64,000 nucleotides of DNA, from the NCBI GenBank assembly GCA_003024785.1, contig PUQB01000785.1, positions 34,041 through 98,040 of the forward strand, in the 5' to 3' direction. Below, piece after piece: positions 15,874-64,000 of the stretch. Under the pieces are notes generated by a model, which worked only from the letters and a program-made list of their open reading frames with translations, did not search any database and was not told where the DNA came from. The DNA comes from Selaginella tamariscina. Its lineage: Eukaryota > Streptophyta > Lycopodiopsida > Selaginellales > Selaginellaceae. The position numbers and the translations under genes are program-made. Positions within the stretch are counted from its first letter, which is position 1. Each line of letters begins with the position of its first letter.

Positions 15874-15892
15874 ATGTTTTATCCAAGAGTGT

Positions 15893-17030: not shown

Positions 17031-17094
17031 TTGGACATTATTACATATGTATTTGATTGGATAAAAAAGAGAAAGCATGGAGATGGGAAAGTAG

Positions 17095-27650: not shown

Positions 27651-27747
27651 TGGGGTTAAAATATCTAATGTTGTAATCGAAACAAATGGTAATGTACTGA
27701 CTCGAATAATATGCATATAATCACACACACACACACACACACATGTT

Positions 27748-27965: not shown

Positions 27966-27984
27966 CGGGTTATGATAATTGCTA

Positions 27985-28915
27985 ATACGAGAATGGGAGT
28001 ACGGGTATAAATATACTAGAATAAGACTAGGAAAGGATCCTGAGTATACTGTATATTGTACTATATGCCTTGTATGGACATAATATAAGTTTCATCTTAC
28101 TCTCATTACGTGTCTCTTGCTTATTTTTCTGTTCTATAGTATACTATTTTCTTTCTCACTAATGTGATGGGATCCGCAATACTGCTACCTTCTACATATC
28201 TATCCATCCTTACTATGTTCCGACTTTCTGAAGTCTAATCTTATGTTATCTCCTTATTCGGCTTGACCCTTATTACCGGTTGACAGTGGCAACTGCTATG
28301 TTTTAATTTTAGGATTGTTCTTAGTTTAACGTGACCTTGGCACTATTTGATGTAATGATTGCACCAATGACTATCTTTGCATACTTCATCATAATGTCAG
28401 TTACAAGCACTTTGACCCATTGCATTACGAGATCCTTGTAGTATACTCTCAACTAGATTAGCATGATCGTAGTCGTTAGCATGCCCAAACACATGTTTAA
28501 AAATCACTAAAAGAATACTCAATCCTCAGGAGTAGAACACCATGGTGAACATCATTGATAAATACATGAACGTCGTTGTCAATCAACCAACATGACCGAC
28601 CATCAATTGAGTCGTTGTTTATAGTAGAAATCGTCACTTTTGAGCGGACCATGTGGATATGGCGAGTGTCGACCATCTTTGCTCACACATGTCTTGGAAT
28701 GCTTGACAAGCGATCCCTCCCTCCATTGTTTTGTATGTTCACTTGTAATAATTTGGATAAATTTTACAGCAATACAAGAGAACCCTAGGTGCTTCCCCTT
28801 TATTCTGAAATACCATGTCCATTCCACGGTACCACGGCCTAGAATATATCTCATTGTCTTGTCTTTAGTGTTACCTCAATCCTAAACCTATAATATAAAT
28901 AACATCTGGGTTTTT
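27985..28915. other. Conserved non-AT-rich segment of unknown nature, copy 2
   Basis: Near-identical repeat of 16113-17030. Small indels relative to copy 1 (for instance GTGTCGACC versus GTGTGACC near 28668) change every reading frame, which argues against protein-coding function. Confidence 0.45.
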
Positions 28916-28979
28916 GGACATTATTACATATGTATTTGATTGGATAAATAAAGAGAAAGCATGGAGATGGGAAAGTAGC

Positions 28980-29195
28980 TTCGGCGGGATTTATCCCGCC
29001 ATTTTCTGAGGAGCGTCTTGGGATAAATCCAATCAATGCGGAAACACTTTGGTCATTGGGATTTATCCCACCGGTTTATGAGGAGCATCCGCATGATAAT
29101 CTAGTTGACATGGAGCAATTTGCCGTCAGTGGGATAAATCCGCATGCGCCAAGTTGAGGCAGAATGGTTGAGTGGGATTTATCATGTCGAAATTA
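28980..29195 (+). repeat. Cluster of GGGATTTATCCC-type palindromes, copy 2
   Basis: Counterpart of 17095-17315, with the same GGCGGGAT and ATCCCGCC palindrome and the following GGATAAATCC and GGGATTTATC repeats. Confidence 0.5.
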
Positions 29196-36432: not shown

Positions 36433-38250
36433 ACTATTGTCTGGCCAGTAAATTGCCTAAGATAGCATGCACTTTGTTTTCCATATACCCCCCTATGTAG
36501 CCATTAGGGTGTCGTGGTGTTCCACAATAAACATTCATTGTATTGATCCCAGTGGCATGTAAATCTTTTCACCTTTGTACTAATCTTCTTCGTGAAAGTC
36601 GGTGTCCACCCCTTTGGTAGATTTTAACACGTATTTGTTTTGCGAACTCATCCTCTTCACATGCATCTTTAATGTATCCATTCTCACAAACGCAATTAGC
36701 TTTTTGACTTAAAGTGTCCAGCACAACATTACTTGTTCCAGGTTAGTGTTTGATCTGAAAATCGTACATCGCAAACGTCTCAACCCACCTTGCCAATTTT
36801 CCTTTCTTTAGGCGTTCATGAAAATAATTAAGTGAGAAACTGTTAGTGTGTACAATGAATGCTCTCCCTAAATAATGCCTCCACTCTTTCAATGTCATAA
36901 CCATTGTGTACATTTCCTTTTCATGCATTGGCCAGTTTCGTTGTGTTTTATCAAGTTTCTTTGAGTAGAAGGCAATGGGATGCCATTCTTGTGATAGCTT
37001 TGCACCTGTAGCAAAGTCTGAAACATCTGTCACTACCTTAAATTATTTCTCAAAGTTGGGTTCCTTCATTCTTTGGATGCTACATCACATTCCCTAATTC
37101 ACACCCAAGGCATGTCCTTCGTCGAGTCTAACAATGGCTTGGCCTTTTTGGAATAGCCTTTCACAAAACAGCAGTAGTAATTGCACAATCCCAAGAAGGA
37201 TCGTAGTGGGTGAATATCTTTTGGACGTTCCCACTCTTAAATGGCCTTTATTATTTTTGGATCCATTTGCACTTGCCCACCTCCTAAAATGTGTTCTAAG
37301 AAGTGACATTCCCGCATTTTGAAATCGCACTTAATGCTTGATAAGCATATTGAAGGCTTACGTAAGGTGTTCATGAAGTTAAGGGATATAAACTATATGC
37401 CAAGACATTATACACCAAAATGTCATTAATGTAGACCATCACAAAATTATCTATGTACTCCTTCAATATGTTATATATCATTACCAACCGAAAAGGTGCG
37501 CATTACATAAGTTGAATGACATTATCAAGAACTCAAACGATCCATATTGTGTTTGACAAGTTGTTTTGTGCACATCCTCTTTAGTTACCCATAGTTGATA
37601 ATACCCCGATCTCATGTCAATGTGTGAAAAATACTTTACTTTGGCCACTTAGTCAAAGAGATTGTTTATTTGTGGGAAAGGATAATAATTCTCGATCGTC
37701 ATGTTGTTGAGAGTCCGATAATTTAGCTCTGCCAATTCCTTCTCATTAAAATGGTAAGGAGCTCTTGTAATGGGTGCTAACTTGGCTGCAACTTGATTTT
37801 ATGGTGCAAGACACTTTTTGGGGCAGTCCCGCAGTAGTTTATTTGGCATGGTCTCGTTAAACTCTTGTAATAATACCTCTAAAATTTCTTTCAATTGTTC
37901 ATCCTCTTCATTCTTCATTTCACCCTCTTCTTTTATTCGAATAAAGCACCAATAAGTGTTTACCAGTTTGGTGTGAATTTTAAGGGATTTTTCTACTTGC
38001 TTCATGGACATTAAATTTATAGCAATTTTCTTTAACTTTTGATACGGCTTGCACTGTATCAAATCCTTCTCTCCATTTGCCTTGAGAAGGGTGATAGTAG
38101 TTTCGGGGTTGCTAATCGCATGGGTCATAATTTGTCAATATCAACTTATACTGATAATAATTTCGAACTCCTCAATGTTCACCTAACTAATTTTTGTTTG
38201 GCCTTCCAGCTCTTAGCTTGGACTTTATACTAGTATAAACTTATGCTATA
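36433..38250 (-). pseudogene. Ty3/gypsy RT-RNase H region (gypsy B)
   Basis: The minus strand reads, in order, a protease-RT linker (NETMPNKLLRDCPKK at about 37820) and RT segments NEKELAELNYRTLNN and YYQLWVTKEDVHKTTC (about 37590). It continues with YGSFEFLIMSFNLCNAP and VYINDILV at the catalytic position (YxDD reads INDI), near 37430. Then come the RNase H tether with FLEHILGGGQVQMDP and FLGLCNYYCCFVKGYSKK (about 37290-37150). RNase H itself (WHPIAFYSKKLDKTQRNWPM, 37033-36743) still has a long open frame. At 36460 it reaches AMLS*AIYWPD of the integrase zinc domain. It has several frameshifts and stops and is inactive. Confidence 0.8.
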
Positions 38251-45742: not shown

Positions 45743-45752
45743 CATTAATTTC
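45743..45752 (+). repeat. Target-site duplication of element 1, left copy
   Basis: CATTAATTTC immediately precedes the element and is repeated exactly at 54781-54790. A 10-bp duplication falls in the 9-11 bp range made by Mutator-like transposases. Confidence 0.85.
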
Positions 45753-45956
45753 AGGGCACGGCGAAATTCGAGCGCAGGTCAACGAGCTTGACCTAGATTT
45801 CCGAATATTCTTGAATATTCCGTTGTTCCGTACGATTTCCGTCTAGATATCCTCGAATATTCTGTACGGAAATTTTTCGTACTGCCAAGTGTACACACAA
45901 TTGGACCTTCCAAAATTTTCAAGAATATTCTAGAATATTCTAGTGCGGCGGCCGCA
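45753..45956 (+). repeat. Left terminal inverted repeat of element 1 with GAATATTC palindromes
   Basis: Contains two doublets with exact GAAnnTTCnnGAAnnTTC spacing: GAATATTCTTGAATATTC at 45803-45820 and GAATATTCTAGAATATTC at 45923-45940. A single GAATATTC lies at 45855-45862. It ends in GTGCGGCGGCCGCA (45943-45956), the motif also found in the central palindromes. These are probable transposase-binding sites; they equal the heat-shock-element consensus. Confidence 0.65.
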
Positions 45957-46117
45957 TACAAAATATGGTAGTATATTTTTGTTGTATTTAAAGAAAATAT
46001 ATGTTAAATTACTTAAAAATATGCTAACATAAAATTACCATTAAAATTTATATTGAAAATTATAAGTTTGAAATAACAAATATAAAACCGAAGCTGTTTG
46101 AAAACAAACCAAACACA

Positions 46118-49100
46118 CTAAATAGATGGTGGAGGATGGAGGTTCCTTGGTAGCATCAATAAAGAACTTAGTTCACGGGGTGCAAGTGTACGACGTTGCA
46201 AATGCTTGACAACTCGAGGATCAGCTCCCAGTACACGCTTGTAAACAAAATACATATGTTTGCAAGGCACCCACTGACGACCATTGCAGAACTCCGAGCA
46301 TGAACAAGATGGTGCGCTACAAATGACAACCCAAGCAGATGTATGGTCGTTGTCACATACTCTGAAGCGAATGCATGTTGGAGGATCAACCACGTCAACT
46401 TCTGCGACATATGCTCCCAACGTCAAACATGCTTCAAAACTTACCTGTTGTTTCTTAGACATCCCTAAAGGTGTTCTTGTTGCACGACCACTTGCAGGAA
46501 CAGGAGGTCCACGAAATTGTGCAGGGGGTGTTGAAAATCCAGTGACTCCAACAGGAACTGAAGGAACATGAGGTGTTGAAAAACCTGGCACTCCTGCATG
46601 AGCTGAAGGAAGCCCAGCTAGCATAAAACCTGATCTTGCCAGATCATTGATCTCCATTGCTATCAGCTTCGTGCCCACTTGAACTTTCCAAACCGAGGTA
46701 GAAGCTGGCGGAGAAACAATAGTTGGTCTTGGATGTCTGTTGCAAAGCATGTTTGTTGGACAAAAATACATCATTTGTGAGCGAAAGCATTCTTCACCAG
46801 TTTCTTTGTCATTGTATCTGATCCTTCCAAAAAAACAAGGAGCAGCCACTCGATTACCACTAGGACTGATCTTTTTGTCACAAGCACTCCACTGACCTCC
46901 TGAAGAGGGAAAGCCTGCCAGACATTTCACAGAACTTCTTTCACCACATCTTCTAATCGCCCATTGTCCAGGTGTAACATCTTGTTCTTCAACCAGAACA
47001 TATTCTTCATGTTCTTCTGCAAGTTGAAAATCCAATCGTCGCTTCCGTCTACACTGTGTTGGAATAACCTGTTCACTATAGAAGATGTCCGGTCGGTGGG
47101 ATCGTTCAGCCTCTGACCCCATATTTCTTTGCACAGTGCGATGTTCAACATTCGTGGCAGCCACAAAAGCAGTATCCTGCATGCTTGATGGAGCAACATC
47201 TTCAACTAAGTCGATGATAACCTTTGCTGTAGGTGTTGTTGAGTTAGCATTTGACATTCTTCTCTCGAACCTTGCTGAGAGCTCCTCTGAAGTCGGCCCG
47301 GAACCACTATACCTTCCATCTCTAAAAGCCTTCACAAGAGCACATTGTCGCACTGATTCAGTCAGGTCGTGGATTGTAGCTTGGTACAATGAAATGTATT
47401 TTGAATCTCTAGCCCTCCTCCATCTTCCGTGAACAGACTCCGACTGGTTTGTCATGGGCACAACCCTTGCAGCATTCTCCGGCATGCTTTCAAGAACAAC
47501 ATTTGAAATATGATTCTTCTGTCTTTCCCACCATGAAAACCACGTCTGCATAACTCCAACATCCTTCACATTTTCATTCCAAAAGCGGAAAAGATTATTT
47601 TCAATTTCTTCACGATCAGTTGTTGATGTGGCTGTTGGCCATGATCTCAAAAGTTGAAGATGTTGTTGTTGATGTTCAAGAGGGACCCACTTCCTTGTCA
47701 CACGTTGTATGGCTTGTTCATAGTGAAAGATACAGCTCCGTTCACGTCCAGGAATTTCTTGGCCATTAAAGAACACATTCCTAATTGCTTGCCAGATCGC
47801 TCCTGCTTCATCGGACATAAACCCAGCGAACTGCACATTGTAGATTCCCTTCTCGGAACAGACATCCAACATAGCACGAAAAAACTTCTCCACAGCTCCA
47901 GCCGTTTGTCTCTTCATGTCACCATAAGCAATGGTGGATAATCGGCGCACACTATAAAATAATCAAAGAGTTAAGCAAACAACAAAAAGATAACATCTTA
48001 CTTTGGGTCGTAAACATGCAATGCCAGAGTGATCCACTTATCAACAACACGGTGTGTGTGATCAAGTAGAACCCAACTCTTCTGCAAAGGGCCAAGAGGA
48101 GGTTGGCACATCCTTACATAATCGATTCCAGAACCTGGCCCTGAAACCGTCATCTTAAAAACTAATGCCTGGTCGTCTGAACCACGGAAATTCATCCCAG
48201 GATAGTGAATCACGTGGATGAATGGGATAGACAACCTTCGTTTCAGCTCCAATAATCCATCAATATTCTCTGGCATTTCAGCAGCAGTTCTCTTTGCGGA
48301 CGCTACCCATTGACGAACTCTGCATCAAAGGTATTATCAAAGAATGCTCAGCACAAAGTAAAACTCTAATTGTACCTTCGATTGTTTGATAATGGTTGCA
48401 AATGATCCATGAGCTTATCCCAACTTCCAGGCTCAGAATTATCTAATAGAAACCAAAGATAGCATCTTTACATGCTGCCATTTCGATGACTCTTGGACTA
48501 GCTCTGGGAGTTCTTTCTGTTGCATTCTGGACCGCCATATGCATTTCTTCTTTGTTCGATGCAGAAACACCATCACCCACTGGATGTGAATGTTTTCCCT
48601 GGTGGATAAACAATCTAGTCTTGGTTATGTCGTCTGGGAAAACGCAAAACGCCACAGCATGACAAACTTCAAGGCACAATGGATTTTCTTTACAAAAAAA
48701 CATGTCAATCCTTTTGCCAGTTTGTCGATTGAAGGTGGGGAAACAATACATCCTTTCCATTTAGTGCAGTTCGGAAATCCTGCCTTAGAAGCAGGGCAGT
48801 CCGGGTTGATACAGCAAAGGCTCCCAACACATTTGCTCCTGGACACCCTCGCTTGAAAATTCCAGTTGCTGGTCGTTCCTGCTGTCCAGGTATGTCCATC
48901 CTCTTTCCGATTCATTCCTTTGTATTTGTATTCGGAAGGAGGGAGCTCAAAAATGACATCCCCATCATACGCAATAGGCAATTCATTTGTATGAATGATC
49001 GTGGAACCCTCGATAAGAATTCTTCCCTTTTTGCAGGTATTAGAAGTGAAAAGGTTCTTCAACGTTGAGTATTCAGAGTCAGAAGCAACGACAAGCTTAA

Positions 49101-49335
49101 ACAATGGTCCTTCATCCGGTAACAAAACATATCCTGGATTATCCTTCCCTCCAGCATCTTGGTCCTCGTTTATTTCGATCTGTAAAGCAGATTGCCCATG
49201 AAGAAGTTTAAAAAGACGAACACTTTGCCAATCAAAAATGCCAAAGAACGTTCTAATCTGATTAGTAAGAATGATTCCAACACCATCTATCACAGGAACA
49301 TCGTGATCCAAATTGCCGTAAACAATCCTGGCCAT
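46118..49335 (-). pseudogene. Mutator-like transposase with WRKY/GCM1-like and SWIM zinc fingers (element 1)
   Basis: Three exons: 49335-48376, 48319-48002 and 47951-46118, with GT-AG introns of 56 and 50 bp. Exon 1 starts MARIVYGNLDHD and holds a Cys/His region (KCVGSLCCINPDC ending in GKHSHP) resembling the WRKY-GCM1 zinc fingers of MULE transposases. Exon 2 has the first catalytic Asp (WVLLDHTHRV). Exon 3, a 610-codon open frame, has the second (FAGFMSDEAGAIWQAI), the CIFHYEQ motif, the catalytic Glu context (MTNQSESVHGRWRR), a 200-residue Cys-containing insert, and SWIM (CSCSEFC then CKHMYFVY) near the C-terminus. Frame breaks near 48755 and 48445 in exon 1 make it a pseudogene or contain sequence errors. 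It would cut and rejoin the element ends in the nucleus. Confidence 0.8.
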
Positions 49336-49949
49336 TTTGCAAGCAGTTACCACAAACGTGACAGAAAAACAACAGCATTACTTAATCATCTTTTGGTAAA
49401 TATCGGATATTACCATTTCAAAAATTCACAATCATGACTCAACGTGGGCGAATATTTAATTCAAGGAAACGTATAGATCTTAGATGCTAATATAGTATAG
49501 CACTTCACGTAGAGATAGAGCAATCTTTATTGTCTTTTAAATAAATGTGTGTCTAATCTACATTCATCTGACATATTTATTTATGACTTGTTTATATTCT
49601 GTTAATTTATTTATTATAATTATATAGTTATTTGATCCAGTATTTTATCAAATGTAGATGTTGATTAATACTTGCTCCGCTACCAATTGTCAATTATAAA
49701 TACATATTTTTACACGAATATTTATTTAATTATATAATAATATGTTTTTTTAACATACAAATTTTTACTTAAATATGTGTTTGTATTTGTATCCTTTTAT
49801 ATAGTATGTTATTTATCGTAAGTATTATATATACTGTTGTATGGTTTAATTAAACACAGTTTTATAGTTAAGGGTCAAAGGGTTAAGTGTTAGATTTTAG
49901 GGTAAAGGTTCAGGACTACCCATTCTTCTTCTCCATTCTCCATTGTTGA
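49336..49949. promoter_or_regulatory. Shared divergent promoter region of element 1
   Basis: This AT-rich 0.6-kb gap lies between the divergent transposase and methyltransferase genes and contains no ORF. TATA-like sequences occur near 49796-49806 and 49822-49833, but no single one can be preferred. Both transcripts must start here, if expressed. Confidence 0.45.
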
Positions 49950-50155
49950 GAGAGGGCACTTTTGTTCTTTTTTTTGCGGCGACAAGAGGCTAGTGTGAGC
50001 GTCACGGCGACATGGCTACAGGTAAAATCTTATATATGTGTATAGTAATTTCTGTGAATGTATGTGCAAATTCAGTAGGATTTCTTTGTATTCACAAACG
50101 CACGCGCGTGTGCACACAACACACACCTCCGACGCATGAGTTATTGCCGATTTCG

Positions 50156-50158
<3 letters not shown>

Positions 50159-50188
<30 letters not shown>

Positions 50189-50355
50189 TTTCCTGCCAAT
50201 TCGGGCAGGAAATCTGCCGCCTGGATGGTGCGGCGGCCGCACCATCTGGGCGGCAGGAATTCCTGCCGAATTGGGCAGGAAAATCCTGCCGCCAGGATGG
50301 TGCGGCGGCCGCACCATCTTGGCGGCAGATTTCCTGCCCAATTCGGGCAGGAAAT

Positions 50356-50395
<40 letters not shown>
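50159..50395. repeat. Nested GC-rich palindrome flanked by (CA)n and (TG)n
   Basis: The core contains, twice, the arms GATGGTGCGGC and GCCGCACCATC around a single G (50224-50246 and 50296-50318). Three times it has CCTGCC and GGCAGG around five bases (50192, 50261, 50333 onward). The left border is a (CA)n run (50159-50187) and the right border a (TG)n run (50358-50393), so the whole 235 bp can fold on itself. The GTGCGGCGGCCGCA core recurs at the left end of the element (45943) and partly at the right end (54667-54675). Confidence 0.85.
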
Positions 50396-50501
50396 GCGCA
50401 CACACATAAATAACATTTTACACACGTATGATTATACAACATTAGACTTGTATACATGTGTGTGTGTATATATAAATATATATATAAATACATACTTAAA
50501 A

Positions 50502-50507
<6 letters not shown>

Positions 50508-50550
<43 letters not shown>
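50508..50550 (+). repeat. (AT)n microsatellite
   Basis: About 21 AT units inside the 5'-UTR intron of the element 1 methyltransferase gene, followed by a few GTAT repeats. Confidence 0.9.
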
Positions 50551-50562
<12 letters not shown>

Positions 50563-53500
50563 GTATAAGTATATGAATTTAAGACTTGTATATATGAGAT
50601 GATGCTTTTTCGTCTGTATATACATGTGAAGAGATATGAATATACCCATATTCTCTCACACAGACACATCACAAAACACAAACAACATTGCACACACACA
50701 CACTAATCAACATTACACACATACACAAGGAACATTATATAGTGAGCACACACACAAACAACATTACACGTATAAATATGTGTGTGTGTGCGTGTGTGTC
50801 TATATATATTGATAGGTATACATATATAGTAAATGTGTGTCCATAAATTAAAACAACTCACACACACACACACTTATCAGTTGTTGTAATTGCAGAATGA
50901 GACAAAGGCAGAGTAAGAGACTACGAGATAAATACAAGACTTTGACACTTCAAGAACATATCGTCCAAGAAGCTCTTGCAGATATGGCTCCAAAACCTCG
51001 TGGCAAGAAAGGAGGCCGAGGCGCCAAGCAACAACTGCAACACAAAGAGATGATGCCGACGAACAAAACCTGTGGATAGTTCGCAAGTCATTGATGAACA
51101 TACTGTGGTGAGTGAATGGATGCCTAGAAATAGGGAGATTGCAGGAAGCTCTGCAGAACACGGTAATGCAGAGGAAGTACCGGATATTGATCTTGGTAGT
51201 AAAATGTTCAATAAGAAGAGGAAACTGGATGCTCCTGAGGATGTTGCCGAATCATATGCAATTCCGGAGCGGCTGACACTTGAGGCTCCATCCAAGCTTC
51301 TTCGGGATCTTGTTATTCGGTATGACACAGATATTGACACATCGCTACAAGGACGAGACCACTACGTTCCAGTTGAGCTTGGTGAGCCTCCGCGTATCCC
51401 GGTTCACAGGTTGCTCCCACACCAACGTTTGAGGAATGTCACTAAGGACGGCGTGAAAGACCTTGTTGGATGGATTAGAGCTGAAGGATTTTACCAGGAG
51501 ACGTCAGTGTTCACCTTATCTTTCGGACCACAGCTGAGTGCAGACGAACGCCGAAGTTGGAATGAGTCAGAAGCACAGGTCGATAGAGAGTTTGAAGCGG
51601 ATTTGCATAAGCCAGCATTTTCTGCATGGTATCGATTTCTGAAAGATGCAAAGTTTCTGGTGTGGGATGGGAATCATCGTCGGGTTGCTTTGAACACTTT
51701 GCTTGCTGAAGAGCCAGGTTTGAAATGGACTTTGCGTGTACGTGCAACACTCATAGCATCCACAGTGCAAGAGGAGAAGAGACTAATCGCTGCTTGCAAT
51801 CGGTTGAATGAGTAAGTGACTTGTTTGTTTCATTATTTAAATACTAAATAAATGTTGTTTTGTTTTGCAGAGCAACTGCTCGTGTGGTTCCTACAACAAT
51901 CATTCACACCTTGCAGTTCTTACGGAATTGTTGTGTGAAGTCTGCAGATCTTTCTACCGATCATGTTCTTCGCGGGATGCCGGAGGAAGATAGAAAAGCT
52001 GTGGAAGTGTGGAGATCGAACAGAAAAGAAGACGTTTGGTACGAGTATCCAAAGACGACATTGGTGAAGATTTTTTGGGAGGTAATCTTTTCTTCTTCTT
52101 TTGACTGATTTTGTTTTCTCTTTTGCAGAATCAACTGAAGCGACAAATCGCTACAAAACTTGCGAACAGAAAACCAAACCAGACAGAATCTCAGATCCTC
52201 TCCAGCGTTTACAAGACATTCACAGTTCGGATGAACAAATTCCTCACCATTGCTGATCCGGCGGTCGGTGAAGATTGGTTCAAGGCGATCACAGATATCA
52301 CTATCAAACCATCAACGAAGCAAATAACTCTGGAGAAGCTTCAAATGCTCGCGAAGTCCCAGCTTCCTTCCAACGTCAAGGTTGATATCCTTGGAAAGCT
52401 TGTGCACATTCAAGAACGTGGCGTTCTTGAGAAGCTGGTGAACATGACGGAGAAAGACAAGAAGGAAGGTGTCACCGGCTGGCCTGACAAGGACTTCATC
52501 AAGTTTTTGCACATCTTTACTTACTGGTTCCAGGTAATTTAATATTTATATTTTTCATTTTTATTCGTTTTATCGTGCCAGGTCGCGGAGGCAGCTAAAG
52601 AGCTTTTGGTCGAGCATGTAGAGGAGTTCATGACATGGTATATGAAGATGCACAATGAAATTAAGTTGGATATGTACCAGAACATGCTCGAGAACAAGGA
52701 GTTCGGTGCGACAATTCCACCTCCTCGACTATTTGAGCTGGAAAAATCTGCAAAAAGAATGGCATTCAGGCAAGTTTTTTTTTTTGTTTCTTATACTATT
52801 TTTACATTTTTAAAAAAAGAACGATGCACTCCCTGAAGATTTCAAAGAGTGGATGGATGTTACCAAGGATTCTAGCATGTGGAGCCGGTTGTTACGTGAT
52901 ATCAGTGATTACGAAGTGGAACACTGTCCTTTCTGGCTGGATTTCCTTCCTGGTGACTGTCCCGAATGGGAGATGGCCAGCTATAAGATACACAAGGATG
53001 ATCGGCGAGAGCTATTATGGAAGAACGACAATGCTGCAAGGAAGCTCCATGTGAAGATGGATATCAGGTATGCTAGATCGGCGAGCAAGGTCAGCAAGGG
53101 ACAAGCTTCTTCTTCAGCCCCATCCTTCATCTCGGCTGGATTGGAAGAAGATGATATGTTGAGGATGGTGATGCCTGAGAAGGGAAATGGAAGCTGGGAA
53201 ATCATTCATGCAGATTCAGAGAACCTTGCAGTCCAGTACTTCAAAGCCGGAAGGCCTTTTCCGTCAGGATTGAAGGAGCTTGAGGATTGGATCGTGAGTC
53301 ACAAGTCAAGTTGGACTATTCATGTGTTTGGTGCGAAGCCTCCACCAAAATGCATCCAGGGAGCTGTTGATCTCGTTGTCATCGACCCGCCTACCGGATG
53401 CGTTGCTGAGGCAGGCGGGATGGTGGATCAATACACGAAGTTCTCGGATGCTTTGCTGAAGAACTTGGTGAACCTTGCTTTCGGGATATTAGACAGAGCT

Positions 53501-54666
53501 GGCCATGTGGTAGTGTTTGTGCTACCGGATGATGTTCTAGCTTTGAAGAACACTGCAGAAACTTGCAAGCTAAAGTTTCTGCAGATGAGTTATGTGACAC
53601 ATGGGATACCGTTTCTCTAGAAAGGTAATTCTTCTTTTTGAGAATGTCATTTTTTAATTTATTTTTTCAGGAAAGCATCATTGCCATGTGTATTTTTGGT
53701 TCCCCTACTCTAAGGTTGCCAAGAACAAGGAGATCTTGGACACTCGCTACACTCTTCTTTTTGATGAGCCAGAAGATTTCCAGCTCCCATGGTATAATGT
53801 TGTTTGTTATTTCTCATGTTCTAATATTGTAACTTTCAGGATTTCAATTGGCCCAAAATCTCCCAAGTTGTTTGCGATGCTAGTGGAGAAGCTCACAAAG
53901 CCTGGTGGAACTGTTGTGGATCTAACAGTGGAACCGGTGCTAGTATTCTTGCAGCTTTTCACACAGGGAGACATGGTTATGGAATCGACATCAACAAGGA
54001 TCTGGTTTTAGCAGCCAGAGATGTCTTCAGGAAGGTCATTCCAAGTGTTATAGCAGCTGAAGGTGGTGGGGATGATCAAGTTGTTTCCATGATTACTCCT
54101 TTTGATGAGTGGAAGAGGGCCATGGAAACAGAAGCACAGGATTTGCCTTTGGCTAGCGACAACGATGGAGACCAGGATCCGCCTTCTCGAAACGACAAGG
54201 ATGTTGTTACGGAGAAGTCCGTGGAGCACAACGACGAGTCATCAGATGAGTCAGCAGAAGAGAGATCATACGAGTCATCAGATGATGAGTGAGATTTGTT
54301 TTATCATTTCTTTGGTTTTAAACTTTAATATGTTTTCAGTATTGTTCTACCAGACTACGCTAATCAGATGGTAAAGAAAATGGTTGAAGAGTTCGAAGTT
54401 TACGACAGACAGATTTTGGAGAAACGTTCACGACACCATAACAATGCATTCATTAACGACGAGGCACTGGCTGGTGGAAACGAGTCTTCATGATTGAGTT
54501 ATGTTTTTATTGTAATTTTTATTTAGTTTGATGCGGTATTTATATAAAAATATAATTATAGTTATAAATATAAATATTAAAAAAATAAAAACATAAATAT
54601 ATATGTCAGATTAACCCCCAAATTTGTGAAACTTTGACACATTACCGTGCCGCCATGATTGCCCGC

Positions 54667-54780
54667 CCGCCGCACCAGAATATTCTTTATATGAAAACGA
54701 ATATTCTGTACGGAATGGAATATTTCGGTATGACGGAAATCCGTACACTCAGCAAACTGCGCTCGAGGAAATGTCAAACC
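54667..54780 (-). repeat. Right terminal inverted repeat of element 1
   Basis: In reverse complement it begins opposite the target-site duplication. It carries TCGAGCGCAG, GGATTTCCGTC, two GAATATTC palindromes (54678-54685, 54699-54706), a GGAATATTT-like half copy, and ends in AGAATATTCTGGTGCGGCGG. This matches the left end at 19 of 20 positions in that last block. It is shorter (about 114 bp) than the left repeat. Confidence 0.7.
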
Positions 54781-54790
54781 CATTAATTTC
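54781..54790 (+). repeat. Target-site duplication of element 1, right copy
   Basis: CATTAATTTC, identical to 45743-45752. Confidence 0.85.
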
Positions 54791-55459
54791 CTTAAATTCA
54801 GGTGATGCCTTTGGCTTATATTTTGCTTTTGTCACTTTTAATTGTGTGCTGGATTGCACTTTTCGGAGTCCAGACATGGAACGTGATGAAAACATTCAAA
54901 GGTGAGCGATTATGAGGAGTCTGAGAATTCAAAACCAAGAAGGAGTTTCGTGAGGTCAGCCTTGGCTCTGATACTAGTTCTTATGCACCTTTTTTGCTAA
55001 TTTCAAATTTTAACACTTAGTCACAATTCACTTGCACAAAGGACACAGTGTTAAAACATAACTATCACAAATCGCACTACAGACTCCACTAAATGCCAAT
55101 AGCGACCAACCCTTCAAAGCTTAGTGACTTTGCAACCATTTTTGAAAACCACTAAGTTACACCACATACACCCTGGGCTAGGTGACATACCCTCATTCTT
55201 GCCTATTCCTTATAGGGTTAGGTAAGTCCTGGGGTAGCACCGACCTTGGAGCCTATTTGGATGAGTGGCCAGAGCTCTTACTCTGTCTATAGCACATCTT
55301 AATTATAAGTGGCTTTGCTAGCATGACAGACTCTAATTGTTATTCTAAGTTTCATCTCGCCAGGTCTTGACTCAGTATCGTCCGATTCACTAACTCAATC
55401 CCTACAACTTGACAAGCCTCCTCCATAGCGATCTTATCCTATCGTTGTGAGTCCCGACA
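54791..55459 (-). mobile_element. Gypsy C 5' part: gag start, primer-binding site and 5' LTR
   Basis: Minus-strand reading of 54860-54791 gives THQ-type leader sequence ending KYKPKASPEFK, in frame with the gag frame left of element 1. At 54978-54962 the minus strand has TAGTATCAGAGCCAAGG, close to the plant retrotransposon primer-binding site TGGTATCAGAGCC (initiator tRNA-Met). The sequence 55459-54984 starts TGTCGGGACTCACAACG and ends GGTGCA in minus orientation, fitting a 476-bp 5' LTR (TG...CA). A matching 3' LTR was not found by eye. Confidence 0.55.
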
Positions 55460-55486
55460 AAAAGAGGGCTTCCGGGCTTGGACCCG

Positions 55487-55553
55487 GAATATTCTAAAGA
55501 ATACCAGAATATTCCTAAATATTCTTAGAATTTAGGATTTTGGCTCAGTCGGC
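55487..55553 (+). repeat. Left end of element 2
   Basis: GAATATTC at 55487-55494 and 55507-55514, AAATATTCTTAGAATTT next to them, then CAGTCGGC at 55546-55553, the half-site of the central array. It is less regular than the right end. Confidence 0.55.
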
Positions 55554-55645
55554 AATTAACAACAAAAAATATTTAAATCATAGCCATGTTTATACTGTAT
55601 TATTAAAGTTTTATTTCAACACCAAAGAGTACAATTCAACACTTG

Positions 55646-58600
55646 TCACTTCTTCTTACGATTGAGCAATGCTGCAATTCGTGAACCACCAGTCCTACTT
55701 GACGTCGCTATTGGTTGGGTTGGGATTTCCTCTGGCTGGATGTTCTCTTTAATCCTGTTCATAGCAATTCTCCCGAGCTCAGGGTTCTTCTCAGTCCCAA
55801 CAATGTTTCTCCCCAGCTCGATAGCTGCAAGCATTGAGGACCCCGTACCACTGCCTATATCCCAGATAAGATCACCTGGCCGGGTGAGTCGTTCTATCAC
55901 GAGCTGCATCAATCGAGTGCTCTTCGGTTGGTAGTCCATCCTGCATGTGAAGATAATGGTAAATACTTAAATTGTTGAAATGAAATGCCTACCATGGTTC
56001 TTGGAACCGCTCAGGATTATCAACAAGAATTGTTGATGACAAACGCAGGATTATCGCGCAATCCTCTAGATGCATCTTGGAAGACAAGAAGGAGCAGGAT
56101 GCTCTCCTGTTAAAACATCAAAATCATTAATGAACTTCATGAATAAAGAAAAAAGTACCTTCATCTTGTTGCGGTAGCCCCAACCACGCCCTCTGTAGAT
56201 GTAGTACGTTGCAGCAAGTTGAAGGTCCACCACACTTGCAGCTCGGACAACTTGATCCCAGGTGTTTGCTGCAGCAAACACAACCAACCAACCATTTGCA
56301 GCCATATGCATACCTGCAAACTGGAGTGCTTCATCGAACTTCACTGGATCAAGGTAGAGGTATGGCGTATCACTCGTTGTATTTCCTGGCAAGGTCCCAT
56401 TTGGAAGGTCGAAGATCACCAAGTTGAAACCATATTCTCCCGCAATATGCTGGTAGCGAGTCTGGCTGTCAGCTGTATGGTACCTGGCCACCTGTGTCTG
56501 AACTTTTCTATAAGGAACCAGTCTAGCGTCAGGAACCTCCTCTTCCTTCTCATCCGTGAGCACGGCCTGTTGCATCTCCTCGATGTCATCAATCGCCAAG
56601 AAATTATCACCTCGAGTTGTAGCAAGTGAAGGGACGAATGTGACCAAGTCATCCTTGATGTCCATGGTTCCCTGCGATGGTAGCACTTCAGATAAATTGA
56701 AGAAGGCAGCTGGATCGCGAGTAGTGGAGGTGCCAGCTACTGTATCTGAGGTCTTCTTTGACTGCTGCACAGGCTGACGCCGCTTTGCCTTGGCCTTTGT
56801 CTTCTTAATGAAGTCGACCTCTGCCGGATCCCATGAGATGCATGGGAGATCTTTTGAGTGTTCATTGTAGAGATCCTTCTCCCATGTTGGTGGTTGCCCA
56901 GGTGGATAATCAAGCCAGAACGGTACGTGTACACGCTCGAACTCTGTCAGGCCAGATCTTGTCTTCGACCACATGTGTGGTGCTTCCATGTAATCTGACC
57001 AGAATACCATAGTCTGTGTGTGAGGCACCTTTCTCGCTGCGACATACCTGTAATGAACATATAGTAGTGTCAGAATGTAACAATGTCAAGAAGATCATCC
57101 TTACCTCCAAATCATCCTTCTTGCTGTCTCTTCGTGTTCGAGGAACTCTTTCGGCTCTATGGAGTAAGTGAACTTCACACACTCATGGAATGGCTGGAAC
57201 ATCACGTTCTTGCATTTTACCCGCACTTCATCGTACCAAGTCGTGAAATCTGTAACCGGCCTGCTCCACTCGCCATCCTCGATGAGTCCCGTGAGAATCT
57301 GTACTGCCTCCTCTCTGATTGCCCGCCAATACAAATCGATAGTAAACCACCTTATCCACTCCTTATCCTGAACACCCGGCAATCCAAGTGTCTCTTGCTC
57401 TCTCTTCAGATCGAGACGTACCAGTTTATTGAAGTACATGATTCTCGTCTCGTTTGGAATTCTCGCCCTTGAAAGCGCGTACAGCTTTTCCAACCCCATC
57501 CATCTGCATTGTTTCCATGTGATTTGGGTCACCTTGTCGAACCACTCTTCACCCAATGCAGGATCGATGATGGCTAAGATCTTCATCATGCGCTTGTCAT
57601 GCTTAATGTAGACCTGTTGTTGCTCCTGGTATTTGTTGCCTTTGGATGCCCTTGCAGCCTTCTCAAGATCATCCTCAATCTCACTCTGTAATTCACAGAC
57701 GTAATCAACTAAGTAATATAAGTGTGAGACGTGGTACCTCAAAAAAGATCTTTGCACAGATCAAATTCGGAAGTGGATGCCAAGCTTGTTGTCCAGTGCG
57801 CTTTCCTTCCACTTTCTTATGTCATCTCGTTCCTTGTCACTGAGCCTGGCCAAGATCTTCGCTGTGCCCTCCTCACTGGTGCAACATGTCTTCACAGATA
57901 GCAGAAGATGTGGCAGTGTGGTTTGCACTGCCGTTGCGGAGGAACTGCATATTTGAAAATCTCGAAGTTAGTTAATCCTATGATCTAGAGGTCACTATGT
58001 TTACCTATTAATTTGCTGAAACATTGTCACAAGCTGAAGATTATCCATGACCCCAGCACGGATGAAGCCTGAACGCACTCTCACTGCCCACTGATCTTAT
58101 CTTCCGTGTCTTCTGTGTACAGCTTCTGAAGCACCTTTAGCCTGTGATTACCATCCCAACAGATGAACTTCTTCATCGAAAGCATTGGTGCCCATTGCCG
58201 GAACATGTCAGACTGAAGCTCCTCCTCAAAAGCCAAATGCTGAGCATACATCGCTTCATCGCTTCTCAATGCTGCCAGATCTGCATCTGTCATGGGGTCC
58301 CCAACTTGAAGGATGAACTGAGTGGTGTTGCGCAAATAACCAACTGCCTTCTTGAAACTCCTAGTCAAAGATTCCAGATCCGCTGGATTGACTCTCCGCA
58401 CCTGCTCATTTCCCAGAATTCGGCAAATAGGGACATCCGGTGCCTCTCCATATTCTCGGATTGTGATCTTCGCGAGAAGACGCACTGCACTCTCCGAATG
58501 CATGCTGGCTGCAATGTTGTAAACTTCCTCATTATCTGGCACTTCTGCTTTACCCTTCTTCTTCTTCTTAGCAGCCTCTGAATCTCCAGCAGCTTTGCGT

Positions 58601-58962
58601 CGTCTCTTCTTGCTCTTGGGTTCATCCTCTTCGTCACTCGACAAAGTCACTGCGCATGAGGCTTGTGTGCCTTCTGTCTGCTCCTGTGTCTCCTGTGGTA
58701 AGACATCATCCTCAACTTCTTCAACAAAGTCTGATTGTTCTTGTTGGGGTTGAACTACATCCTCTTGCTCTCCTGACCAGTCCTGCTGGCTTGCCTGTTC
58801 AACTGGAGCATCACTTGAAGGTCCTTGTTCCTGAACCACAGCCAGCTTCCTACTTCCTCTCCCACGACCCCGACGCCCTCTCTGAATTGCAGCTCTAGCT
58901 TCTGCTTCTCTCTCAGTAGGCTCCTTCATCTTCTTTTCTTGTAAACGTTGTGAAGAGCGCAT
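55646..58962 (-). pseudogene. ParB-like domain and beta-class DNA methyltransferase gene (element 2)
   Basis: Exons 58962-58005, 57944-57738, 57685-57105, 57047-56159, 56106-55993 and 55940-55646; introns 52-60 bp. The N-terminus (MRSSQRLQEKKMKE) is followed by a Gln/Glu-rich stretch and nuclear-localisation-like clusters (KSKKRRRK, KKKKKGK). The ParB-like motif CWDGNHRLKVL is at about 58161-58130. Motif IV reads FDLPNG (56411-56395), losing the usual DPP. Motif I is intact: WDIGSGTGSSMLAA, then GRNIVGTEKNPE (55870-55790), close to bacterial beta-class methyltransferases. Frame breaks near 58083 and 57795, and at the exon 4/5 join, show decay. Splice sites align with element 1, proving a shared, already spliced ancestor. 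The product would act on DNA in the nucleus; its target base is unknown. Confidence 0.75.
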
Positions 58963-59570
58963 CTACAAAAGCAATAAGGTTTAACAAAAAACTGTAATAA
59001 ATGTTCAAAGATGTTTAATAAAAATTAAAAAAACATACTAGCCCTCACAGTCGGCGTGCCGACTGAGAGAGCAGTTGCTGTAAGTCCCAGTCGGCATGCC
59101 GACTGGGCCTGGCATCAAAGGGAGTCCCAGTCGGCATGCCGACTGGGACTGGCAAAGGAGGCCCAGTCGGCATGCCGACTGGGACTGGCATCAAAGGGAG
59201 TCCCAGTCGGCATGCCGACTGGGCCTGGCAACAAAGGGAGGCCCAGTCGGCATGCCGACTGGGACTGGCAACAAAGGGAGGCCCAGTCTGGGACTGGGAA
59301 CGAAGCGAGGCCCAGTCAAAATGCTAGGTGGGACTAGAACAGTCAACCCTAGTCAAAATGCTGACTGGGGCTGGAACAGTCAACCCCGGTCAAAATGTTG
59401 ACTGGATCTGGAACAGTCCACCCCAGTCGGCCTGCCGACTGGGACGGACAACGAAGTCAGTCCGAGTCGGCAGGCCGACTCGAATTTCTTGCAACTGTGA
59501 AGAGATGTAAAAAGATGAACAGATCACGAAGAGATCATGAGCAAATCATGAAGAAATAGAAAATACTCAC
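58963..59570 (-). other. Long 5'-UTR intron of the element 2 methyltransferase gene
   Basis: The sequence just before the ATG reads, on the minus strand, TTATTGCTTTTGTAG, a good acceptor. A donor GGTGAGTATTTTC lies at about 59569. The intron of about 600 bp holds the palindrome array. The presumed upstream exon (about 59570-59720) contains several GGCGGCTAGGG repeats and a telo-box-like CTAGGGTTTTG. Confidence 0.5.
59048..59482. repeat. Array of about 11 AGTCGGC palindromes with a 36-40 bp period
   Basis: Five copies (59086-59107, 59126-59147, 59162-59183, 59202-59223, 59242-59263) share a perfect 22-bp palindrome centred on GTCGGCATGCCGAC, separated by CCTGGCATCAAAGGGAG-like spacers. Degenerate copies flank them, from GTCGGCGTGCCGAC (59049) to GAGTCGGCAGGCCGACTC (59464). 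The middle copies (59282-59400) have lost the GGC core and read AGTCAAAATG. The half-site AGTCGGC also occurs at both element ends (55547; 63132, 63151, 63184). Confidence 0.9.
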
Positions 59571-59973
59571 CCCCCAATGGAAGCCTATTGTGATTAATCC
59601 CTGGAGCCACACTTGCTCCACGCTATGCCCCCAAATGAGCCCTGCTCCACGAAAACCTAGCCGCCCTAGCTGCCCTAGCCGCCCTAATTGCAAAACCCTA
59701 GCCGCCCTAAATCAATTAAAAACCAACCTAATTTCTGTAAACATATTGCATGCATGATCGCCACTTGTACATAGTAAAACTTTTTAATTTACAAAAAACC
59801 TACCCAGACGCAGTAAATTAATTTCACTCTTCTACCCAGACGCACGCAATTAATATTATTTTTAATATTTGTCAATGAAATGATTGCCTCACGACTAACA
59901 AACACATTAACCATCGTGTGTAATATGTTCATTGTCTTTGAATTTTAACTTTTGTTTGTTCCATTTTTGCTAC
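59571..59973. promoter_or_regulatory. Central promoter region of element 2
   Basis: Between the divergent genes. It includes five CCTAGCCGCC/CTAGCTGCC repeats and AAAACCCTAG (59640-59710), which resembles the plant telo-box, then AT-rich sequence with two CTACCCAGACGCA copies (59799, 59833). The transposase ATG follows at 59974. Confidence 0.45.
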
Positions 59974-62900
59974 ATGGCAAGAATCAGCTACAATGGTGTT
60001 GACAAGGACTTCCCTGCAGATGAAGATGGTATTGCATTTGTCTTTGAAACAGATCTCAGGTCTGCATTTGACATTCCACCTTGGCAATCTTTTAAAGTGC
60101 TGCATTTGATGTCTGTTGTTGGTGGAGATGCTGCGAATGTTGAGGTAGAACCAGAAGGGGCAAGAGCTAGCAGTTTTGTGTATTACACACTTCTTCCTTC
60201 CAAAGGACCACTATTCCGGTTGGAGACAACAGATCGGGACAATTCTATGGTAACAATACTTCGCAATAGTCAGAGATGTAGGATTGGGAAGCAACTGGTG
60301 GTCTCGTCATCGATTCAGCAAGTTGCTGAGGTCCCAGAAGATTGCAACGGAAATGTGATTTACGAGTTGCCAGCACACGAAACAATGAAGGACAAGTACA
60401 AAGGGATGAATAGGAAGGATGGGTGTGATTACTGGACTCAACGCTGCACAACACATTGGAATGTTCCAGCTCGTGTTAGTCGCAGTTCATGTATTGGCCA
60501 CATGAAATGCGTAAAGGAAACATGTCCGTTCATCAGCTTCAGTAAGAAAGCAAATGACTGCCAATTTAAGGGCACCATTGATAAAGTCCAGTTATCTTCA
60601 GATGGTAGAGTGCATTGCAACAATGAGCCCCTTCTAGTGCAGACATGCTCCGTTGTTGCATATTACATAATTCCAGATGATATCACATGCACGAGGCTTT
60701 TCATCCATCTTGGAGAACATCAACACCCACGTAGACCACCCGAATCCATGGTCTCTAAAGACAGAGCTAAGGAGACAATCAACAAAGCAGTCGCTGCAAC
60801 CCCAAGAACTAATCAACGTGTCATAGAGTTTCAAGCAGCACGCAATATAATTTTGGAAAAACTGGTAACAGATTCTGGAGATGTATCATACGACAAGGTT
60901 CTGTCAGATCTACTACCACTCACAAATCACCGCCGGTAAGCAAAAAAATTATTATTTCCTTTTGGAGATGCTTAACCTTTCCACTGTAGAACAAGAGAAT
61001 GGATATCTCAGGCTAGAACAAGAGACACTCGTTTCAAAGAAGGTTACGAAGGACTTCTGCAGTTAAAGAAGAAGCTATCAATCCCATTCATACATGTTAT
61101 CCACATACCCGGAATGGACCTCAACGGAGCTGAAGAGCAGCCTTTAATCTTCAAAATGACGGTTGCCGGCCCAGGATCCGGAATAGACTACATTAGAAGG
61201 TGTCAATCTGGAGGTGATCTCGAACAGCAGTGGGTGGTGCTAGACCACACATATCGTATTGATGATTGGTGTACACTGGGAATACATCTCTATGATCCAT
61301 TGTAAGTATTAACATATCTATGTTTTAAAATACTTACTAATATAATGCACTTATGTTTGTGTAGTTTAAGGTCGATGGTGACACTTGCTTATGGTGACAT
61401 GATCAGGGAGGATAGTGTGGCGGTGATCAAATTTTTGAACACTATGCTTCAAGTGTGCAGCAAGCAAGGACTTCATAATGTGAACTTTGCGGGGTTCATG
61501 TCAGATGAGTCAGGTGCAATTTGGTTAGCATTGCGTCAAGTTTTCAACAATGGGTCAAAGATGAGAGGAAGAGAAAGGAGTTGTTTGTTCCATTACATGC
61601 AGTCAGTGCGTCAAGTTACAAAGAAGTGGATACTTGAGGAACACAGGGAGGAGCACATGAACCTTGCACGCTCATGGCCTGCAGCACTAACCAACCAAGA
61701 TAAGTTGGAACGACGAGTAATGTTGGAGTCATTTTGGGAAGGCAGGTCCAGTAACGTTAGCGCTTTGCAAACATGGCTGTCATGGTGGGCAAGACATGAA
61801 GATCATATTTCCATGACAGAGATAATTGACTTGACAGAAGATGGTGTTGCGAATGTGCCTACCACTAACAACTCCGAAGTTGTTCATGCAAGAGCACGAA
61901 GAGCAAGGCTGACGAAGCGTGTTCCTTTGTTGGAGGCAACAATGTTAGATTTAACAGATGCTGTTTTCCAAAGTGCAAAGGTCAAGGCATCATTTGAAGG
62001 GAGATATTCAGGCACAGGTCCTTCCATGGAAACTCTTCTGAAACGTGCACAGCAGAAACTTTCAGCGGGAAAATCAGTGTCTCCAACAACTTTTGCAAAT
62101 CTTGTTAGTGATGAAGAGCATCTTGCAAGTCCAGAGTTTGCCTCTACAACAAATGTTCGTGTTCGAACCGTTCGTCAACCGTCAACTGGGGACCATGGGA
62201 TTGATGCACTTCGTACACATAGACATGACACACAATATGCAGAACAAGTCATCCCAAATGCACGCAGGAAAAAACTCAAGTTTCAAGATGTCAATGTCAC
62301 TGAAAGAGAGACGTTGATGACTCAGTGGGCCATCAGACGCATTGGGGAGGCAAGTCAGGTGAAATGTCTAGGTCTCACTCAGGACGGTAACAGCAAGTGT
62401 GGCAGACCCATAGGATATCCACATCGTGTACCGGCACCAGGATTTCACGGTAGACGGCAATATACAAATGCATTTGGGAACATTGAGTTCACTCATCAGA
62501 TGTATGGTTCTGCCCACGCGATTCTTGTTGCTTCAGACGACCATATGCAGGGATTCCTCCTGAGAGTATTCCAGAAGTTCCAGAGGTTTGGCCAGTTCAA
62601 AAAGGAACAAACTTGAATGCAAATGAGGTTGAAGCTCTTCTGAAAGCAGGATTCAAGTTGGAGGGATTTGAAGAAATGGTAGACGACAGTAGTAGCCGAA
62701 TGGATCGAACACCATCACCACCAAGAGGAGAGGGAGCACATAGAGTACCAACATACCATGGACGGAGTGTGCGAACACCAACAAGAATGTCCAAGGAACA
62801 TGAGAAACATTACAACCAGGCAAAGATTCTTCAAGGTCGGATCAACAACGTGGAGGTGGTTCAAAGAGGGAAGACTGAGGCCTTCATTGTCTCTGCAGGC

Positions 62901-63127
62901 ATGCAATCTGCTAAGGTAACAATTTCTACTGTTCCGTCATGCACTTGTGCAACTTTTCAGAAAGCCAAGAACTGGAGCCCCTGCCAACACATGTATTTTG
63001 TGTACACTCATGTTCTTGGATTGACCCAACGATTACTTACTTCTTACAGAGGCGGACCCTTACTCCAGCAGAAGTGCATCGGTTATTGGTTGGTTGCAAG
63101 CGCAATGTCGAACCTGCGACTTTTTAA
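59974..63127 (+). pseudogene. Mutator-like transposase with WRKY/GCM1-like and SWIM zinc fingers (element 2)
   Basis: Exons 59974-60935, 60990-61301 and 61365-about 63127; GT-AG introns of 54 and 63 bp in the same places as element 1. The start MARISYNGVDKDF matches element 1's MARIVYGNLDHD. Exon 1 has the Cys/His finger (SCIGHMKCVKETC, later GEHQHP). Exon 2 has the first catalytic Asp (VVLDHTYRID, 61243). Exon 3 has the second (MSDESGAIWLAL, 61504), CLFHYMQ, and the Glu context TNNSEVVHARARR (61876). SWIM reads CTCATF then SPCQHMYFVY (62938-62997). Frame breaks near 62505 (after THQMYG) and 63025 (after VLG) shift the end. By position the original C-terminus, TLTPAEVHRLLV, matches element 1's TLAPRELSSLL. 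Confidence 0.8.
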
Positions 63128-63130
63128 GTC

Positions 63131-63309
63131 CAGTCGGTATAGTAAAGTCTAGTCGGCAAATAATTAGCGTTTTTCACTTGTTGGTCGGCATTTTATATTG
63201 AAAGTTAAAGATAATCTACTTGGCAGAATATTCTAGAATATTCCCGTTTATTTGACAGAATATTCCTGGATACATTCGGGAATATGCGAAAAGCCCGTTG
63301 TACGAACCC
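63131..63309 (-). repeat. Right end of element 2
   Basis: AGTCGG half-sites at 63132-63137, 63151-63157 and 63184-63189. Then GAATATTCTAGAATATTC (63226-63243), a perfect four-unit GAA/TTC array identical in sequence to the one at the left end of element 1. A further GAATATTC lies at 63258-63265 and GGGAATATGC near 63288. The terminus near GAACCC (63304-63309) is estimated. Confidence 0.6.
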
Positions 63310-64000
63310 GGTTTTTGCTAATCCTCAATGATACTTGGCCCACCGTGACGCCAGGCTCAGGTACAACCACCAGGTAAATGAGGCTGCCCATGGCCTGTCG
63401 ATAGGCACTGCCTCCATGTACCTTGTCTCCCGGTTGCACGGTGCCATGTCTCGAGTCAACTCACTGCAGGGTCATGGTGTCAAAGCTGCAGTTTGCCATG
63501 TTGAACCGTTGAAGGACCTCGTCCACATACTTCGACTGTCCTCAAGCAAGCCATTGAGAAAAACAGCTTTCTGATCGCTCTCGCTAGGGTTGCCTTCACT
63601 TGAACTAGTTGAATCACAAGCCCCTTTAGACGCTACGAACTCAGGTACTGTCTCGTTCGCTGCCATCTTCAATCCGAAGAACTGTTGCTTCAGACTGAGC
63701 TCACTGGCAGTACTAGATCCCCAAACGAACGGACAAGGCCATCCCAGTTGTCCTTCGCTGGTTTGGTGAGGCGATCAGGTCCACGAACCCTGGCCCAGCG
63801 CTAGACCAATCGTGGTCAGCGCCTTGCGATCGCGGGCGTCCCAGGTAGCCCTGCACTGCTGGGTCGGTTGTGGGACGGCTTCTGTGCCATCCACCACCCT
63901 AGTTGCCCTCTCGCATCAGCACCAATTGGACCTTGATGCTCCATGTATGAAGTTCGCTCCCGTGAAGTGCTCCAAAAATTTGTCCAGGAATTATCCGTGG
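63310..64000 (-). pseudogene. Internally deleted Ty1/copia retrotransposon fragment
   Basis: From the right edge, the minus strand gives copia gag-like sequence (WSIKVQLVLMREG, then SSTASELSLKQQFFGLKMAAN and VPEFVAS). It then jumps directly to RT segments: DQKAVFLNGLLED, YVDEVLQRFNMANC, YRQAMGSLIYLV and VGQVS. In intact copia elements the protease, integrase and most of RT lie between these parts, so several kilobases are missing. It ends at element 2, within the post-RT segment. Frameshifts are also present. Confidence 0.75.

Follow-up and report, generated by a model that had tools for sequence, protein, structure and literature searches.

A 64,000-nucleotide stretch of the Selaginella tamariscina genome (assembly GCA_003024785.1, contig PUQB01000785.1, positions 34,041 to 98,040 of the forward strand), hereafter the window, contains two neighboring DNA transposons, E1 and E2. 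Each of them pairs a Mutator-like transposase gene with a divergently oriented gene for a ParB/methyltransferase-like protein. A natural explanation, which we consider evenly balanced between acceptance and doubt, is that E1 and E2 represent one Mutator-like two-gene lineage, in which the second protein would be a long-standing accessory factor recognizing its own element.

Structure of the two elements

Element E1 occupies window positions 45753..54780 (9,028 bp). Its bounds follow from the alignment of copies fetched from the genome, most of which align from window position 45754 to 54781 and diverge outside, and from the target-site duplication, CATTAATTTC on the left (45743..45752, plus strand; 9 bp with the terminal C counted as part of the element) and its counterpart on the right (54781..54790, plus strand). 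The left end (45753..45956, plus strand) comprises an imperfect terminal repeat, five GAATATTC sites and one GTGCGGCGGCCGCA site, and the right end (54664..54780, minus strand) comprises an inverted GTGCGGCGG, two GAATATTC sites and the terminal repeat. The terminal inverted repeats are imperfect: the match over the first 34 bp is reached by 1 of 2000 shuffles, and 21 of 23 positions match at the inner boundary.

As judged from stop-to-stop frames and self-comparison, the E1 transposase gene (46118..49335, minus strand; exons 49335-48376, 48319-48002, and 47951-46118) runs leftwards from 49335, and the methyltransferase-like gene (50897..54292, plus strand; exons 50897-51811, 51871-52081, 52129-52533, 52582-52769, ~52807-53624, 53671-53791, and 53840-54292) runs rightwards from 50897. 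The latter gene contains the DGNHR codons of a ParB-type motif (51666..51680, plus strand) and the motif IV codons for DPPT (53384..53395, plus strand); it has one GC-AG intron, and the acceptor of the ~52807-53624 exon is not recognizable in the window copy. Between the genes lies an array of palindromes containing GTGCGGCGGCCGCAC (50190..50359). In this central region, at 50160-50392, (AC)n and (TG)n runs flank an enclosed 105-nt inverted repeat.

Element E2 lies at about 55449..63326 (7,878 bp), with bounds taken from comparison with one other copy, L038, whose flanks differ. Its left end (55449..55554, plus strand) carries two GAATATTC sites and a AGTCGGCA site, and its right end (63151..63326, minus strand) carries a AGTCGGCA site, three GAATATTC sites, and the terminal repeat. 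The methyltransferase-like gene (55646..58962, minus strand; exons 58962-58005, 57944-57738, 57685-57105, 57047-56159, 56106-55993, and 55940-55646), with the motif IV variant DLPN, is oriented leftwards from 58962, and the transposase gene (59974..63127, plus strand; exons 59974-60935, 60990-61301, and 61365-63127) rightwards from 59974. The region between them (59045..59497) is an array of 40-bp units with the palindrome AGTCGGCATGCCGACT. No target duplication was found for E2 in the window copy or in L038.

Thus, the layout common to both elements is a divergent gene pair with a repeat-rich region between the genes. Introns of both elements are 46-63 nt long, which is short for land plants. 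In the window copies, the frames of all four genes are broken, and these copies appear to be dead. A preliminary description of this DNA, made from its letters alone, had placed the two elements, both gene pairs, and their motifs at the positions where we locate them; of the span that it gave (45753..63309), the start is exact and the end falls about 17 bp short of 63326.

Copies in the genome

The genome assembly (300.7 Mb, 1391 contigs) contains 116 matches to the E1 14-mer GTGCGGCGGCCGCA and none to its reversed control. Many of the listed places form pairs with a spacing of about 4.28 kb, which corresponds to the separation of the left end and the center of E1. From 100 of the 116 places, 18 stretches were fetched around such pairs, so that the selection used left-end and central sites only. 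E1 is covered to 96-100% in 16 of these stretches, to 78% in L028, and to 55% in L018, a stretch truncated on the wrong side. All 17 E1 stretches that reach the methyltransferase-like gene contain it, though it was not a selection criterion, and it is also present in the full E2 copy L038; hence the co-occurrence of the two genes in other copies, on which the preliminary description had made its proposal depend, is confirmed. Chance or misreading of the gene pairs was ruled out, as the pairs recur in other copies.

The E1 alignment comprises 17 copies, that of the window and 16 fetched ones. Four of them (L015, L016, L025, and L027) have an open methyltransferase-like gene (1,042 aa) and three (L013, L027, and L029) an open transposase gene (1,037 aa), L027 being the only copy with both. 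The ends have the form GGGGCACGGCGAAATTCGAGCGCA and CTGCGCTCGAGGAAATGTCAAACC in most copies. Because the pairwise identity of the copies is high (median 99.15%, range 95.15-99.92%), the E1 family must have spread recently. When the methyltransferase-like gene of the other 16 copies is compared with that of L015, indel events outnumber substitutions in eight copies (7 and 4 in the window copy; 2 and 0 in each of L024, L026, and L029), substitutions outnumber indel events in six (L012, L014, L017, L020, L023, and L025), and two have neither; the totals are 122 indel events and 243 substitutions. The excess of indels in the eight copies may reflect assembly errors rather than simple decay, and therefore the number of open copies may exceed the count given here.

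For E2, the array palindrome AGTCGGCATGCCGACTGGG has 1116 clustered matches per strand (control, 0), indicating either a large family or amplified arrays. The full copy L038 is 97.1% identical to the E2 element of the window over 8,030 aligned positions. Its methyltransferase-like gene is open (1,011 aa) and its transposase gene is open in three exon frames; thus, the genome check for intact copies that had been suggested earlier yielded a copy with both genes open in each family, L027 for E1 and L038 for E2. The overlapping loci L030-L037 represent the central part of another E2 copy. Related transposases without the methyltransferase-like gene may be present elsewhere in the genome.

Age of the pairing and constraint on the proteins

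The methyltransferase-like proteins of open E1 and E2 copies share only 25.8% identity over 902 positions (E=3e-89), and hence the pairing is old; the transposase composites of the two elements are 44% identical. In all eight aligned blocks of both genes, conservation is lowest at the third codon position (0.29-0.40). The second position is the most conserved (0.46-0.80) in seven of the eight, the first position being marginally higher in the SWIM block. Therefore, both genes were under protein-level selection during the divergence of the families. Within the second protein, the ParB block of E1 has its homologue in that of E2 (27% identity, E 1e-31), and the best conserved part is the S-adenosylmethionine (SAM)-binding half of the methyltransferase-type domain (41% identity), where the G-T-G and PKS / T.PG signatures are kept in both families.

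Domains of the second protein

Profile searches with the window genes were run on composites of the broken frames, and an open E1 copy was searched as well. The N6_N4_Mtase profile PF01555 (curated cut-off 26.7 bits) matches the composites of both families with 34.5 and 36.3 bits and the open E1 copy with 34.2 bits. The match is restricted to profile positions 165-220 of 221, that is, to the C-terminal, SAM-binding half; the catalytic half was matched by none of the profiles tried. Solved structures matching the SAM-binding half include MboIIA, CcrM, and DpnA. An E2 exon matches phrog_67, a DNA methyltransferase family, in PHROGs (7.6e-13). In a phage tblastn search (312 records), 19 of the 20 matches listed align only from residue 887 on, and the three loci inspected are annotated DNA methyltransferases. 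The stretch that matches bacterial or phage families is only about 55-70 residues long, and the capture of a bacterial or phage gene with later intron gain, as envisaged in the preliminary description, is a hypothesis. Protein-database searches gave no match, and no relative was found in viral contigs.

In both open proteins, motif IV precedes motif I, which is the order of beta-class amino-methyltransferases. Motif I is DIGSGTG in E2, as the SGTG noted earlier, and VVDLTVGTG in the open E1 copies, which departs from it. One old E1 copy with broken frames, L023, has motif IV codons starting GAC CTG CC, which encode D-L-P as in E2. The sequence WDGNHR is identical in the E1 and E2 proteins and agrees with the DGxHR-type ParB motif. 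No ParB family profile was listed at E up to 1 (up to 5 for the open E1 copy, a range in which the HMMER filters remove most matches above about 0.1). DndB, which we take to be ParB-like, gave a weak match below cut-off in E1 only (E 0.0017 and 0.0056).

Transposase and target-site duplications

The Pfam MULE transposase model matched neither the open E1 transposase (E up to 5, with most matches above 0.1 dropped by the filters) nor the two composites (E up to 1). The SWIM profile was found below cut-off in the E2 transposase only (E 0.0043 / 0.027) and not in that of E1. Residues of a candidate D-D-E core with C-x2-H and of a candidate C-terminal SWIM zinc finger are, as judged by eye, conserved between the E1 and E2 transposases, as are Cys/His pairs in the N-terminal region. 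The AlphaFold model of the transposase core has a pLDDT of 41.6.

Mutator-like elements are characterized by target-site duplications of 8-11 bp, typically 9 bp. Perfect E1 duplications occur in 11 of the 15 copies scored (L012 and L013 were left out of the 17), with a null of 0/300 for each of the 11. They are exactly 9 bp long in L015, L016, L019, L025, and L026, and 8, 10, or 11 bp, with ambiguous boundary bases, in L014, L021, L024, L027, L029, and the window copy; none was found in L017, L020, L022, and L023. Taken alone, the window copy is weak evidence, since its duplication is 10 bp long and an exact 10-mer is shared by 45 of 368 random region pairs; the Mutator case rests on the other copies. 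The duplications support the assignment of E1 to Mutator-like elements. Of the interpretation in the preliminary description, the pairing of a Mutator-type element with a ParB/amino-methyltransferase-like gene is supported.

Element-specific sites

In each family, the ends and the intergenic center are linked by a motif private to that family, and a third motif is common to all four ends. All 4 occurrences of GTGCGGCGG in the window fall inside E1 (0.04 expected), one at each end and two in the center. All 15 occurrences of AGTCGGCA fall inside E2 (0.55 expected), one near each end, in direct rather than inverted orientation, and 13 in the central array; L038 repeats this pattern at both ends and in the center. 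For the shared motif GAATATTC, the window has 16 occurrences versus 1.8 expected, 12 of these at the four element ends, and the motif is absent between positions 250 and 8600 in all 17 E1 copies.

The recurrence of left-end and central sites among the E1 copies is by selection, as those sites were used to pick the copies. The right-end GTGCGGCGG was not so used, and it is exact in 13 of the 17 aligned copies. Such a pattern would be the trace expected of a DNA-binding protein that the element encodes and whose recognition is family-specific, and it does not indicate which of the two proteins is the binder. Perfect four-unit arrays of GAAnnTTCnnGAAnnTTC are present in the window at 45803-45820, 45923-45940, and 63226-63243, that is, three versus 0.01 expected and at element ends only.

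Proposed mechanism and alternative explanations

If the second protein is an accessory factor, the following scenario can be suggested. The transposase, with its zinc-finger, DDE, and SWIM-type regions, would cut and paste the element, which in the case of E1 leaves a duplication about 9 bp long. The second protein, with its ParB-like region, conserved middle region, and C-terminal amino-methyltransferase-type domain, would recognize the element-specific palindromes in the central region, which may serve as a shared divergent promoter, and their counterparts near both ends. Its binding, in E1 possibly accompanied by amino methylation of adenine or cytosine, might then regulate the promoter, pair the ends, or mark the copies. 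A more specific version, in which the ParB-methyltransferase reads its own palindrome at the ends and the promoter and marks or clusters the copies by an amino-methyl mark, its specificity having diverged between the families as in bacterial modification enzymes, is in our view unlikely.

Several observations weigh against the accessory-factor scenario. Motif IV, which reads DPPT in the open copies of E1 and DLPN in E2, deviates from the canonical (D/N/S)PP(Y/F/W); the aromatic residue is absent in both families, and in E2 the first proline is missing as well. Methyltransferase activity is therefore uncertain: methylation is plausible for the E1 protein, which keeps DPP, and doubtful for that of E2. 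The beta-class assignment made earlier is supported by PF01555 and the motif order, and qualified by the restriction of the match to the C-terminal half and by motif IV. The least conserved parts of the protein are the N-terminal half of the methyltransferase domain (18% identity) and the preceding linker (15%), which jointly reach an E of only 0.096 between the families; the drop from 41% in the SAM-binding half to 18% in the catalytic half might reflect relaxed catalysis or diversified target recognition, and fits either. The ParB assignment is weak: the motif reported earlier is indeed in both proteins, and beside WDGNHR there is the sub-threshold DndB match in E1 and no family profile; an AlphaFold model of the ParB exons from two sequences has a pLDDT of 33.4. 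The right-end GTGCGGCGG is missing in L013, L017 (poorly aligned at its right end), L026, and L027, the last being the sole E1 copy with both genes open. Finally, the binder of the candidate sites may be the transposase rather than the second protein.

The last point leads to an alternative that we consider possible, if somewhat less likely than not: the zinc-finger region of the transposase may bind the sites at the ends and in the center, so that the transposase is autoregulated, and the methyltransferase-like protein may act elsewhere, for example against host silencing. Transposases commonly bind their own ends, and the Cys/His pairs of the N-terminal region agree with such a role; however, the sequence gives the transposase no preference, as the central arrays sit between both genes. 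We give the same weight to a methyltransferase domain that is a non-methylating pseudo-enzyme, binding DNA, perhaps with SAM, and acting as a structural helper or repressor of transposition. It would account for the motif IV variants of the open copies (DPPT and DLPN) and for the poor conservation of the N-terminal half, and the bdelloid N4CMT is described as losing activity when the catalytic Ser and Tyr of its SPPY are replaced (PMC8885841). However, the SAM-binding half is the best conserved one, with its signatures kept in both families.

Two further explanations appear less probable. The GAATATTC repeats could be heat-shock elements providing stress inducibility rather than protein sites for transposition. 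The three GAAnnTTCnnGAAnnTTC arrays, all of them at element ends, speak for this, GAAnnTTCnnGAAnnTTC being, as we assume, the consensus of the heat-shock factor (HSF); however, the E1 repeats lie 50-190 bp from the tips, kilobases away from the central gene starts, and GAATATTC occurs at both ends, which makes stress inducibility rather improbable. Captured genes are known in Mutator-like elements, and the methyltransferase-like gene could be such passive cargo without a role for the element. We regard this as very improbable, given that the gene is kept in both families at 26% protein identity in the same position and strand, shows protein-level constraint, is present in every stretch reaching it, and is open in recent copies.

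Other features of the window

The block at about 9900-31700 is AT-rich and has large segments duplicated in direct orientation (for example, 15640-19800 and 27500-31680), whose translated pieces agree to about 83-99%; it also includes repeated reading frames labeled by eye as RING-finger-like. Fragments at 857-1934 and 36746-37042 on the minus strand resemble, also by eye, Gag and reverse transcriptase of the Ty3/gypsy type. A fragment at about 5950-6200 resembles what we take to be spherulin-4-like proteins. Scans of the window for tRNA genes and Rfam families gave no matches.

Comparison with known systems

The closest precedent is the Sola1-1_Ec32 transposon of the brown alga Ectocarpus. 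According to passages of its description (PMC12477816), it encodes a 1104-aa protein with ParB-like and N4-N6 DNA methyltransferase domains on the strand opposite the transposase, and its authors propose that the protein binds and epigenetically modifies its own transposon. The likeness to E1 and E2, in which a protein with ParB-like and amino-methyltransferase regions is also encoded opposite a DNA-transposon transposase, is one of description and not of sequence comparison; in contrast to that 21.5-kb Sola1 element, E1 and E2 have a Mutator-like transposase, a length of 8-9 kb, duplications of 8-11 bp in E1, and element-specific palindromes. The same passages cite similar transposon proteins of green and red algae, including those of Petroll et al. 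2025 in Bostrychia. Thus, the pairing of such a protein with the transposase of a DNA transposon, which the preliminary description had taken for unusual in a plant, had already been published.

Other systems share single traits. The bacterial Bce_0392-type protein, as far as PMC5512222 describes it, likewise fuses a ParB domain, with reported nonspecific DNA nicking, to an adenine methylase; unlike this prokaryotic protein, the E1/E2 gene is spliced and encodes a non-canonical motif IV, which follows the ParB-like region at a distance of more than 400 residues. The bdelloid N4CMT is, in the available account (PMC8885841), also a eukaryotic amino-methyltransferase, bacterial in origin and linked to transposons, but it is a host gene with a chromodomain and SPPY that silences transposons and is not carried by them. 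Retrotransposons of dinoflagellates and charophytes also encode DNA methyltransferases, recurrently acquired; these are C5-cytosine enzymes (PMC5890265), unlike those discussed here. Mariner elements of giant viruses are likewise DNA transposons with their own methyltransferase gene, whereas their transposase and methyltransferase belong to other families, and no ParB region is noted in the accessible part of PMC3627910.

A full-text literature search (titles and abstract openings among the matches listed, the green and red algal papers themselves not being covered) yielded no Mutator-like element with a ParB-methyltransferase and no such element-specific sites. Because the Ectocarpus pairing and the accompanying proposal are published, ParB-methyltransferase accessory genes on transposons are already known from algae; the Mutator-like pairing and the element-specific sites appear to be new here.

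These observations bear on the question of why DNA methyltransferases of prokaryotic type are found time and again on eukaryotic transposons. In S. tamariscina, two diverged families in one genome offer copies with both genes open and compact candidate sites at the ends and between the genes. Such copies and sites make it possible to test whether the protein binds, marks, or helps to move its own transposon, and whether, in this host, a mobile element may write N6-methyladenine (6mA) or N4-methylcytosine (4mC).

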